DNA of 64,000 nucleotides from Anaerococcus marasmi (GTDB lineage: Bacteria > Bacillota > Clostridia > Tissierellales > Peptoniphilaceae), in the NCBI RefSeq assembly GCF_900290195.1, contig NZ_OLMF01000004.1, positions 1,167,501 to 1,231,500 on the forward strand, given 5' to 3'. The notes below the pieces were generated by a model. That model saw only the letters and a program-made list of their open reading frames with translations. It made no database searches and was not told the origin of the DNA. Numbering within the stretch: the first letter of the stretch is position 1; each line of letters starts with the position of its first letter. Position numbers and translations under genes: made by a program. This document shows, piece after piece, positions 737-46,053 of this stretch.

Positions 737-1159
737 TTATTCTACTGGCTTTAACAAGTCAGACTTGATGTAGCCTGCTTGGCCATTTACTGATACTCTT
801 GACCAGCCGTCTTTTTCTAATAGTACTAGGATCTCATCTCCTGGGTGAGCTTCCCCTACTATCTCAGAATCTGTCGTTGGATCAAGTCTTATATTTACAA
901 TATCTTCTACTTTGTAATCTACTCCAGCCATCACATCAGAACCTTCATTTTCTGTTTCTTCTTCTGGAGTCTCAACCATTTCATTTTCTTCAGTATTTTC
1001 TTCTTCAATATTTTCTTCTTTGTTTGTATCTTCAGCCTTTTCTGTAACTTGGCTTTCTTCACTTGCCTCTGGATGACGCTTAGATTCGTAAGTGTCATTA
1101 GCACAAGAAGCCAAACCAAGGCTTAGGGCTAATATCATCAATACTTTAATCTTTTTCAT
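737..1159 (-). CDS. SH3b-domain lipoprotein
   Basis: A 140-residue lipoprotein. The signal peptide ends in the lipobox LASC, so Cys19 is the predicted lipidated residue. Residues 24-75 are a Glu-rich, low-complexity linker. Residues 81-140 form a bacterial SH3 fold with the usual VNIRLDPTTDSEIVG and GYIKSDLL segments; such domains bind cell-wall peptides or glycans. Its ATG overlaps the stop of the upstream BY-kinase-like gene by one base, so the two are translationally coupled. As the last gene of a polysaccharide cluster it may anchor the export complex to the wall, which is inference. Confidence 0.85.
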   Translation of the reverse strand: MKKIKVLMILALSLGLASCANDTYESKRHPEASEESQVTEKAEDTNKEENIEEENTEENEMVETPEEETENEGSDVMAGVDYKVEDIVNIRLDPTTDSEIVGEAHPGDEILVLLEKDGWSRVSVNGQAGYIKSDLLKPVE

Positions 1160-1818
1160 TAATCTTCTCCAAACATTTCTCTAACTTCAGTTTCGCTGTA
1201 GATGTAGTTGGTTAGAACTATACCTAGGATTTCTGCATTTACATTTTCAAGTTGTTTTATAGATTCCTTGTATAGGTCATTGTCCTTGTTGGCAAAAGTC
1301 GTAAATACCAAAACCTTATCGCATAGGGCTAGAAACATATTAGCTTCTGGTATATCCTTGTTTGCGGTTGTATTTACAAAGATATAATCGAAAGAATCTC
1401 TAAGGCTTTCTATGAAGTTTTTGATATCCGTTGGTTCTAGGAACTCATCAGCATAATCAGAGACCTTTCCTGAATACATTAGGTAGATATTGTCGAACTT
1501 TTCATCGAATTTGATAAGGTCGTCTTTTGAATAATCTCCAAGGACTCCATCTATAAAGCCCCTTTCCTCAAACTTATCAGTCAAATCTTCAAGGGCAGGC
1601 TCTCTTAGGTTGGCATCTATTATTAGGATTCTATCTCCTTCTTCAGCTAGATGCTTGGCCATAATATAAACATTCAATACCTGATCAGTATGATTTGTTG
1701 TAGATGTAAATCCTATAAGCTTATCGCTAGATCCCAGCGTTTTTACTAGCTTATCTTCAAGGTCATAAAAGGCTTGAAGAGCTATTTCCTTTTTCTCTTC
1801 GTCTTTTTTCCTAAACAT
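1159..1818 (-). CDS. CpsD/BY-kinase-like protein with degenerate nucleotide-binding motifs
   Basis: A 219-residue P-loop-fold protein of the CpsD/CapB type. The Walker A' segment is kept (ILIIDANLREP, residues 64-74). The Walker A loop, normally GEGKS/T, reads TSTTNHTDQ (38-46) and lacks both Gly and Lys. Walker B, normally DTPP, reads FVNTTA (147-152), with Asn in place of Asp. There is no C-terminal Tyr cluster. ATP binding and kinase activity are therefore doubtful, and a structural or regulatory partner role for the adjacent Wzz-like protein is more likely. Its start overlaps the end of the Wzz-like gene by 8 nt. Confidence 0.8.
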   Translation of the reverse strand: MFRKKDEEKKEIALQAFYDLEDKLVKTLGSSDKLIGFTSTTNHTDQVLNVYIMAKHLAEEGDRILIIDANLREPALEDLTDKFEERGFIDGVLGDYSKDDLIKFDEKFDNIYLMYSGKVSDYADEFLEPTDIKNFIESLRDSFDYIFVNTTANKDIPEANMFLALCDKVLVFTTFANKDNDLYKESIKQLENVNAEILGIVLTNYIYSETEVREMFGED

Positions 1819-42532: not shown

Positions 42533-42695
42533 AAAACACCTCGTAATTGAGATGTTTGGTGGGACTTAAGGGACTCGAACCCTGTGATCTTGTCCCTTGT
42601 AGGGTTTTAAATGCGTTAGCATTTAAAATCTCTGAGGCGAATGGAATGAACCCAGTAAACACTTATGAGCGTGCTCATAACCGGTTGTGGGTAAA
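42533..42695 (-). pseudogene. Degenerate tRNA-Met unit 1 (3' half, hairpins, terminator)
   Basis: The 3' end of a tRNA-Met-like gene is left (TGG at 42556, then GTGGGACTTAAGGGACTCGA). It is preceded in transcription by a hairpin (TTTTAAATGC-GTTA-GCATTTAAAA at 42604-42627) and a TTATGAGC/GCTCATAA hairpin derived from the anticodon arm. It ends in the same terminator as the real gene. The acceptor stem is mispaired. Part of four tandem tRNA-terminator units. Confidence 0.7.
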
Positions 42696-42752
42696 AAAAC
42701 ACCTCGTAATTGAGATGTTTGCTGGGCCTTACGGGACTCGAAGCCTGGACCT

Positions 42753-42913
42753 GATAAAGGTCCTAAATGGACCTTTATCCCGAAAACTTAGCACGAAGTG
42801 CACTTAAATAGCCGTTGACTTCGGCTATTTAAGCCGAATACATAGTGCGATAGCACGAAAAGATTCACAAGAATCGAGTATTCGCAAAAGCTTACGAAGT
42901 AAGCGAGTTTTCG
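42753..42913. repeat. Cloverleaf-type palindromic element (host copy) carrying a nested copy
   Basis: Host stems: long hairpin GATAAAGGTCC/GGACCTTTATC (42753-42779), outer stem CGAAAAC (42781-42787)/GTTTTCG (42907-42913), small hairpins GCAC-GAA-GTGC (42791-42801) and GCTTAC-GAA-GTAAGC (42890-42904). A second complete element fills 42802-42884, inserted between the two small hairpins. Confidence 0.8.
42802..42884. repeat. Cloverleaf-type palindromic element (nested copy)
   Basis: Same plan as the host: hairpin CTTAAATAGCCG/CGGCTATTTAAG with loop TTGACTT (42803-42833), outer stem CGAATAC (42835-42841)/GTATTCG (42878-42884), inner hairpins GTGC-GATA-GCAC (42845-42856) and GATTC-ACAA-GAATC (42862-42875). 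Stem bases differ from the other copies, while linkers CATAG, GAAAAG and CGAGT are kept. Confidence 0.8.
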
Positions 42914-42942
42914 TGCGGCCTCTCATAACCGGTACGGCGGGC

Positions 42943-43108
42943 AAAAAAACACCTCGTAATTGAGATGTTTGGTGGGCCTTTCGGGACTCGAAGCCTGCGA
43001 CCTTGTCCCTTGTAGGGTTTTAAATGCGTTAGCATTTAAAATCTCTGAGGCGAATGAAATGAGCCCAGAGAACAGTTATGAGCGTGCTCATAACCGGTTG
43101 TGGGTAAA
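42943..43108 (-). pseudogene. Degenerate tRNA-Met unit 3 (3' half, hairpins, terminator)
   Basis: Close copy of unit 1. The tRNA 3' part is TGGTGGGCCTTTCGGGACTC (from 42970) up to GACC of the variable loop. It is then interrupted by the GTTA-loop hairpin (TTTTAAATGC/GCATTTAAAA, 43018-43041), the CTCTG/CAGAG hairpin and a GTTATGAGC/GCTCATAAC hairpin made from the anticodon arm. The terminator is at 42945-42969. Confidence 0.7.
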
Positions 43109-43134
43109 AAAAAACACCTCGTAATTGAGATGTT
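43109..43134 (-). terminator. Terminator of the tRNA array
   Basis: ACATCTC and GAGGTGT pair around AATTAC, and the minus strand continues with a run of T. It directly follows the CCA of tRNA-Met. The same hairpin follows each of the three degenerate units to the left. Confidence 0.85.
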
Positions 43135-43211
43135 TGGTGGGCCTCCAGGGACTCGAACCCTGGACCTACCGGTTATGAGCCGGGCGCTCTAACCGACTGA
43201 GCTAGAGGCCC
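43135..43211 (-). tRNA. tRNA-Met (CAT)
   Basis: 77 nt including the encoded CCA. Acceptor GGGCCTC/GAGGCCC, anticodon loop CTCATAA, T arm GGTTCGAGTCC. It is elongator-type, judging by the fully paired first base; a lysidine-modified Ile(CAU) tRNA cannot be excluded. Last functional gene of the array. Confidence 0.93.
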
Positions 43212-43264
43212 ACAATATAATTTTCTTAAGTAATTCTTTTATAAAAAACAAAGGTTATGTGCCA

Positions 43265-43373
43265 GGTAAATACCCGTTGATTTCGGGTATTTACCCCGAA
43301 AACATAGCACTATAGTGCGAAAAGCTTCGAAGAAGCGAGTTTTCGTGCGCTCTAACTGACTGAGCTAGAGGCC
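43265..43373 (-). pseudogene. 5' half of tRNA-Met fused to a cloverleaf-type palindromic element
   Basis: 43346-43373 is the 5' half of tRNA-Met (one difference from the real gene) up to the anticodon stem. In place of the rest stands an element: outer stem CGAAAAC (43297-43303)/GTTTTCG (43339-43345), hairpins GCAC-TATA-GTGC (43307-43318) and GCTTC-GAA-GAAGC (43324-43336), and the long hairpin GGTAAATACCCG/CGGGTATTTACC (43265-43295, loop TTGATTT). Confidence 0.78.
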
Positions 43374-45873: not shown

Positions 45874-45939
45874 CTATAGGTTAACAATCTTTCACAAGCC
45901 TCCCCCTTCTAAGGGAGACTCACTTATAGATTTTTTGTT

Positions 45940-46053
45940 TAGCGGCTTCCTAGTCTCCCGGGAGGTTTCCCTCCGAGTACCATCGGCGTTGTTAGGCTTA
46001 ACTTCTGTGTTCGGTATGGGAACAGGTGTATCCCTAGCGCTATCGCCACTATA
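45940..46053 (-). rRNA. 5S rRNA, first copy
   Basis: About 114 nt. Terminal stem TAGTGGC/GCCGCTA; otherwise nearly identical to the copy at 45760. Lies 34 bp from the 23S processing stem; the two 5S genes are 66 bp apart. Confidence 0.94.

Follow-up and report, generated by a model that had tools for sequence, protein, structure and literature searches.

A small multi-hairpin palindromic element dispersed among Anaerococcus genomes, with matched filled and empty sites

To our knowledge it is an open question, in organelles and bacteria alike, how small palindromes spread when they have no terminal repeats. Integron attC sites and the ends of IS200/IS605 elements are recognised as folded strands and show strand asymmetry. 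REPs are described in one account as short, palindromic, mostly intergenic and multi-copy sequences of 20-40 bp that form species-specific families and carry a GTAG or CGTC tag at one end, and their movement is attributed to tyrosine transposases recognising REP DNA in its single-stranded form (PMC3733652). MITEs are treated as small, non-coding, dispersed elements that are presumed to move in trans (PMC10969869). The double-hairpin elements, GC clusters and repetitive hairpin elements of fungal and sponge mitochondria are mobile multi-hairpin palindromes found in rRNA genes and in tandem, with conserved stems and variable loops in the sponge elements (PMC2800124). The folded element described here, abbreviated E, adds a bacterial example with clear limits: its multi-hairpin DNA is dispersed, filled sites can be matched to empty ones, and the copies are numerous enough for covariation to reveal its structure and the rules at its ends. 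An earlier note on this DNA knew of no described element of this form, and the literature searched (titles and abstract openings) held no description of one; nothing published was found for Anaerococcus combined with "repetitive extragenic palindromic".

E follows the plan A-[hairpin 1]-C-[outer stem around hairpins 2 and 3]-T over ~80-90 bases, with a hairpin 1 of 11-12 bp, a single C, an outer stem of 7 bp, a hairpin 2 of 4 bp and a hairpin 3 of 5-6 bp, the last two joined by a 5-6-base, mostly purine linker. Three copies lie on the forward strand of the window, by which we mean the whole 64,000-nt stretch analysed, part of a source genome of 2.13 Mb in 5 contigs; an amylase-like protein from this DNA has 76-99% matches to named Anaerococcus records among 80 of 423 loci. 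The host copy, recognised by sequence and fold, is interrupted: hairpin 1 (11 bp, loop TAAAT) occupies 42753-42779; the outer-stem 5′ arm CGAAAAC (42781-42787) and hairpin 2 GCAC GAA GTGC (42791-42801) follow at 42781-42801; and the linker AAAA, hairpin 3 GCTTAC GAA GTAAGC (42890-42904) and outer-stem 3′ arm GTTTTCG (42907-42913) resume at 42886-42913. Between these parts sits a complete nested copy (42803-42884) with its own hairpin 1, outer stem CGAATAC/GTATTCG and hairpins 2 and 3, which scores 89 bits with covariance model R1. The third copy (43265-43345) is also complete, scores 95.4 bits with R1 and lies in a duplicated tRNA-Met 5′ half whose empty form was seen. The shared plan proposed for these copies, the host spanning 42753-42913, is borne out by sequence and coordinates alike.

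An intact tRNA-Met(CAT) gene (43135-43211, minus strand; ARAGORN and Rfam) is the source sequence of the pseudo-tRNA hosts. Three degenerate minus-strand units at 42541-43134, recognised by eye, keep the T-arm (3′) half of tRNA-Met and its terminator (repeat AACACCTCGTAATTGAGATGTTT); the middle unit hosts E, and similar units occur in two relatives (G006 and G004). The third copy lies within a partial tRNA-Met 5′ half that is duplicated, as judged by eye, upstream of the intact gene. The elements had been said to lie beside broken tRNA-Met copies; tRNA-Met relics are present, but they are not simply broken tRNAs. Foreign palindromes replace the 5′ half in the three relics, and two of the three contain a hairpin, TTTTAAATGCGTTAGCATTTAAAA, that is unrelated to E and is perhaps another inserted element. 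Neither ARAGORN nor Rfam called a tRNA or tRNA-like sequence at 42753-42913 or 43265-43345.

Comparison with other genomes bears on the history of this locus. The host copy occupies the site GGACCT| in its tRNA-Met relic, and in other species un-nested E occurs at this sequence or one much like it (L033, L051, L058, L243 and L247). By eye, G006 has one intact tRNA-Met at the window locus and lacks both the 43265 copy and the host unit (unit 2), while G004 has the same host-plus-nested composite. Since this composite is common to the source genome and G004, the nesting appears from the sequences to predate their split. In a further genome (G024) a copy occupies the tRNA-Met site of the 43265 copy, which leaves two histories for this site: an old insertion since lost elsewhere, or two separate hits.

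Both stretches fold far better than expected from their composition, with z = -5.5 for the third copy and z = -10.1 (RNA parameters) or -9.3 (DNA parameters) for the host and nested copies together; in each case 0 of 200 shuffles was as stable. Among 37 aligned copies from eleven genomes, both partners vary in 22 of 28 pairs, with 97.3% of cells paired; none of 500 shuffles matched the observed covariation values, and slid registers were only 32-46% paired. The stem sequences of the window copies had been reported to differ yet stay paired, and this proved to be true covariation. A larger set of 133 matches, which are the better-scoring copies and not a random sample, comprises 123 distinct copies; aligned to the covariance model's own structure, these gave 3417 cells, of which 3336 (97.6%) were Watson-Crick, 27 were G·T, 24 were A·C and 30 held other combinations. 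A variant form carries an extra apical insert of ~25 bases in hairpin 1 (L033 1531-1639, L036 1631-1739, L041 2525-2628, L050 1288-1391, and L206).

The kind of pairing bears on whether the constraint acts on DNA or on RNA. G·T made up 0.8% of the stem cells in the 123 distinct copies and was no commoner than A·C, and covariation of the RNA type, through G·U intermediates, was not found in the 3417 cells. In contrast, 44 distinct tRNAs from ten sources had 885 Watson-Crick and 64 G·T pairs among 949, a control in which the G·T share is informative and the zero A·C is not, because ARAGORN brackets hold accepted pairs only. A selected RNA would be expected to put up with G·U pairs, so the scarcity of G·T in E makes a constraint on DNA more likely. 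The strict Watson-Crick pairing could, however, come in part from template switches that correct palindromes rather than from selection.

Conservation of loops and linkers, which had been noted for the window copies, holds across the 123 copies: the hairpin 1 loop is TTGATTT in 91, and the motif at the tip is C(GNNA)G for hairpin 2 in 99 copies and C(GNA)G for hairpin 3 in 57. The hairpin 2 loop is GNYA in 41/123 copies and thus is not the RNA-stable GNRA. DNA mini-hairpins with loops of the d(cGNAg) and d(cGNNAg) types are very stable. With the conserved motifs in this reading, the strand folds better than its complement in 110/119 copies with DNA parameters and in 108/119 with RNA parameters, so E has a sense; fold stability was dropped as a means of choosing between DNA and RNA, as both parameter sets favour the same strand. 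No Rfam match covered E in the window at gathering scores or in 14 loci at an E-value of at most 1.

When the source genome and its relatives were searched with covariance model R1, many further copies emerged: 385 in 26 of 31 Anaerococcus genomes (one genome per species), with 1 to 62 per carrier; the five in which it found none are G010, G017, G022, G023 and G026. The source genome has 28 by this model, not counting the interrupted host copy of the window. An order-level search of 199 genomes drew a response from 22, namely 21 Anaerococcus and one member of a different genus in the family, matched weakly and only once, and a phylum-level search of 398 found E in the source genome alone and in none of the 397 others; both searches used strict filters that lose weak matches. 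As to a clustering of hits in stable-RNA loci, E is not tied to such loci: by simple motif patterns, flanks are tRNA-Met-like in 10/133 copies and 5S-like in 11/133. A phage or plasmid origin was discarded. At the sensitivity used, the host-plus-nested stretch had no phage match and two exact-pattern scans of viral contigs were empty. In the best 20 of 184 plasmid records the match starts no earlier than query position 369, which fits the intact tRNA-Met rather than E.

Comparison of filled with empty sites, made between species or between repeats of one genome, indicates that three bases between fixed flanks are typically converted to A[E]T plus one base, with two bases replaced and no target duplication. 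At the 43265 copy, the filled form GGTTATGTGCCA[element]TGCGCTCTAAC corresponds to the empty form GGTTATGAGCC GGG CGCTCTAACC. Within single genomes, GGGGGA[E]TAGGAAAAAGGGG corresponds to GGGGGA A AGGAAAAAGGGG (G020), GGGGGA[E]TAACCGGC to GGGGGA A AACCGGC (G024), and GAGCC A[E]TAA GGCTC to GAGCC GTA GGCTC (G028). The replaced pair, taken as the first two bases between the fixed flanks, was purine-purine on the E strand in 12 of 15 sites (background 0.278 per strand, p = 4e-5), these sites having been selected by us and three of them lying within one kind of composite unit. The 5′ neighbour of E is A in 104/133 copies and the 3′ neighbour is T in 121/133.

The 15 chosen sites with E-less forms are of about ten kinds. 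They include a REP-like palindrome, CTCGAGC-GAA-GTCGAG; a second REP-like palindrome in the source genome, TTTCGACC-GAA-CGGAG; the tRNA-Met sequence GAGCC-GGG-CGCTC that receives the 43265 copy; a hairpin derived from tRNA, GAGCC-GTA-GGCTC, whose filled and empty units lie together at L247; a 5S-like unit whose empty form, TTCGGTAT-GGGA-ACAGG, occurs in other 5S sequences; a 5S-like unit whose empty form, GAC-TAG-GAAGCC, occurs in the window's own 5S gene (45937-46053); a large composite repeat, with three sites; the second of two tandem uvrB ends (Pfam UvrB and UVR); and E's own hairpin 2. The mobility that had been suggested for E is thus supported by filled and E-less sites with similar flanks and by precise, oriented insertion, and the refuting checks named beforehand did not overturn it. 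In the wide sense of a mobile element, both dispersed copies and empty sites are found, across species or across repeats of one genome.

Several of these hosts have features of their own. At L246 (G028; about 1060-1345, minus strand), the uvrB 3′ end forms a tandem pair, of which the first member closes the gene and the second carries E; the two differ at 13 of 77 aligned bases, mostly in third codon positions, and a single amino acid differs ahead of the stop. The locus looks as if a gene end had been replaced beside an insertion. In the source genome, C2:1379885-1381282 (L189) holds 5S-like units interrupted by E in both orientations beside intact 5S genes. Contig C3 of G025 (L248) holds three E-interrupted 5S-like units with a period of 219 bases, identical E copies and an adjoining intact 5S. 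The designation "pseudo-5S" rests on the sequence at the insertion site, because the units in L248 reach 26-36 bits as 5S (Rfam gathering score 38) and Rfam gives no 5S score to the interrupted units of the source genome.

E is dispersed and conserved in structure, inserts precisely and in one orientation relative to the empty forms, and nests. We interpret it as a non-autonomous mobile DNA element whose folded form is recognised in trans and joined to a short purine-rich target, and which is often a passenger; we give this reading a probability of roughly 0.55. A trans-acting enzyme would recognise E as folded single-stranded or cruciform DNA and join it to the target so that a dinucleotide, usually purine-purine, becomes A[E]T on the better-folding strand. 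Passive carriage within larger palindromic repeats clearly accounts for many copies. Since copies that share flanks show passenger movement, independent insertions are far fewer than 385 and probably number, by our estimate, in the dozens.

Passenger movement could be taken further, such that E rarely moves alone and the larger REP-like palindromes or composite units around it are mobile via RAYT/IS200-type enzymes. There are 12 instances of the context CATCTCGACTA[E]TGTGAGTG in which the 9+9 flanks are identical, Y1 genes are present in 17 of the 26 carrier genomes, and the 133 flank pairs collapse into 12 groups if similarity on either side suffices, although this single-linkage grouping is too coarse and lumps 57 copies together. 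We nevertheless consider it unlikely that E is a passenger only, since forms that lack E alone exist at the 15 chosen sites (including two 5S sites, tRNA-Met, the tRNA-derived hairpin and the uvrB end) and the E copies differ and nest in each other. Composite palindromic units of roughly 0.7-0.9 kb by eye, with inverted E near both ends, were seen in three genomes (L025, L030 and L031 in G020, G027 and G029); they have no ORF of at least 90 aa between the E copies, and several of their E sites are empty elsewhere.

The candidate enzymes for movement in trans did not fit, and no family tested tracks E. The ORF listing of six loci (L022-L025, L030 and L031) had no transposase gene between paired E copies. 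The Y1 family (PF01797), with its 17 carriers, is also present in 4/5 non-carriers and absent from 9/26 carriers, and the IS200/IS605 Y1 transposase was rejected as the mover for want of correlation with E over the 31 genomes (Spearman 0.22, p = 0.23). The single Y1 locus of the source genome (L143, 157 aa) contains no E at an E-value of at most 1. A Y1 enzyme may formerly have been present and since been lost. IS110 was likewise rejected, with PF01548 over the cut-off in 11/26 carriers and 4/5 non-carriers and no association. At C2:12690-12772 and C2:1516819-1516901 of the source genome (L185 and L184), the PF01548 match starts exactly 271 bases from E; by eye, IS110 is apparently inserted there in the palindrome around E, so such palindromes look like IS110 targets. 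The reverse transcriptase family PF00078 occurs in 17/26 carriers and 0/5 non-carriers (p = 0.012 before correction for the three families tested), a weak association that possibly stems from relatedness or assembly quality. Single-strand transposons are usually biased to one replication strand. The listed E hits of five genomes, many of which were moved inside larger units, divided 26 versus 27 between the strands, with the origin placed from dnaA and the terminus assumed opposite; no bias to the lagging strand is seen in this division.

The reported interruption of one copy by another was seen in the window and recurs elsewhere, with 13 of the 133 copies interrupting a second E at its hairpin 2 loop, in the form AGTGCA[E]TAAGCAC. 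The nested copy of the window differs in sitting just after host hairpin 2, in the linker between hairpins 2 and 3. On the preferred reading, the hairpin 2 loop of E is itself a short purine-rich target, so copies would nest. It has also been considered that E inserts specifically at the tips of DNA mini-hairpins with C-GNA-G or C-GNNA-G loops. Clear cases are the REP loop CTCGAGC-GAA-GTCGAG, the tRNA-derived GAGCC-GTA-GGCTC and hairpin 2 of E, and the same motifs recur in the hairpin 2 and hairpin 3 loops of E. However, only 5/15 sites lie in a loop closed by at least 4 pairs, compared to 21% at random positions (p = 0.19), and the flank test gave 3/12 groups against 1.0 expected, a result reached in 86/2000 shuffles, which makes such targeting decidedly unlikely. 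As a general rule it was set aside, being attractive for nesting and not significant over the 15 sites.

Replication slippage with template switching between palindromes, which would also perfect the stems, offers an account that needs no enzyme. The near-perfect, wobble-free Watson-Crick stems and the nesting within palindromes are consistent with it, as is the partial tandem duplication of the target beside E (tRNA-Met in the window and the uvrB end in L246). We regard it as quite improbable, since the insertions are precise and oriented, mostly have the same A and T ends in unrelated sequence with no evident guiding homology, and carry conserved loops and linkers (TTGATTT). Finally, an element that acts as RNA (a structured RNA or intervening sequence) and is copied back to DNA, for example by a group II intron reverse transcriptase, would fit the RNA genes among the hosts (tRNA-Met and 5S) and the distribution of PF00078, but it is very improbable given the scarcity of G·T, the GNNA loops, the absence of an Rfam match over E, the occurrence of E in both orientations in 5S-like contexts of the source genome, and two E-rich genomes without a PF00078 match (G014, 42 copies, 84% complete; G007, 39 copies).

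We suggest, as a possibility that we hold to be doubtful, that E represents mobile DNA of a new class, namely a single-stranded element with the shape of a cloverleaf, without terminal repeats or target duplication, spliced one way by an enzyme into short purine-rich sites so that a dinucleotide becomes A[element]T, and nesting in its own hairpin loop. Were this so, E would build recursively branched palindromes genus-wide. The end chemistry, dinucleotide to A[E]T, is specific enough for candidate enzymes to be tested, and the arrays of broken tRNA-Met and 5S rRNA sequences seen in this genus could be explained by E.

E can be set against each of the known systems. Like REP, BIME and REPIN sequences, it is small, palindromic and multi-copy. 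Unlike REPs, it is ~83-88 nt long, combines a hairpin with a three-way junction in four stems, is itself found within REP-like palindromes and does not follow Y1 genes in its occurrence; nor does it have a fixed tag, the bases after the outer stem being TA, TG, TT, TC, GT, GC, GA, CT and others. MITEs, including the palindromic elements of Rickettsia, are similarly small, non-coding and dispersed, and are defined by terminal inverted repeats and target site duplication. The ends of E, in contrast, are closed by at most one A..T pair with no terminal inverted repeats, and about two bases are replaced at its sites with no target site duplication. Unlike the sponge mitochondrial elements, E is bacterial, its stems covary and its loops and linkers are conserved. 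The folded-strand recognition proposed for E resembles that of attC sites and IS200/IS605 ends, whereas no cassette array, integrase or transposase is linked to E. Taken together, E resembles the small mobile palindromes (REP, MITE and mitochondrial double-hairpin) but fails their testable defining features. Because it has neither the defining traits of MITEs nor those of REPs, and its pattern of conservation is the reverse of that in the sponge elements, we file E as a variant of small non-autonomous mobile DNA.
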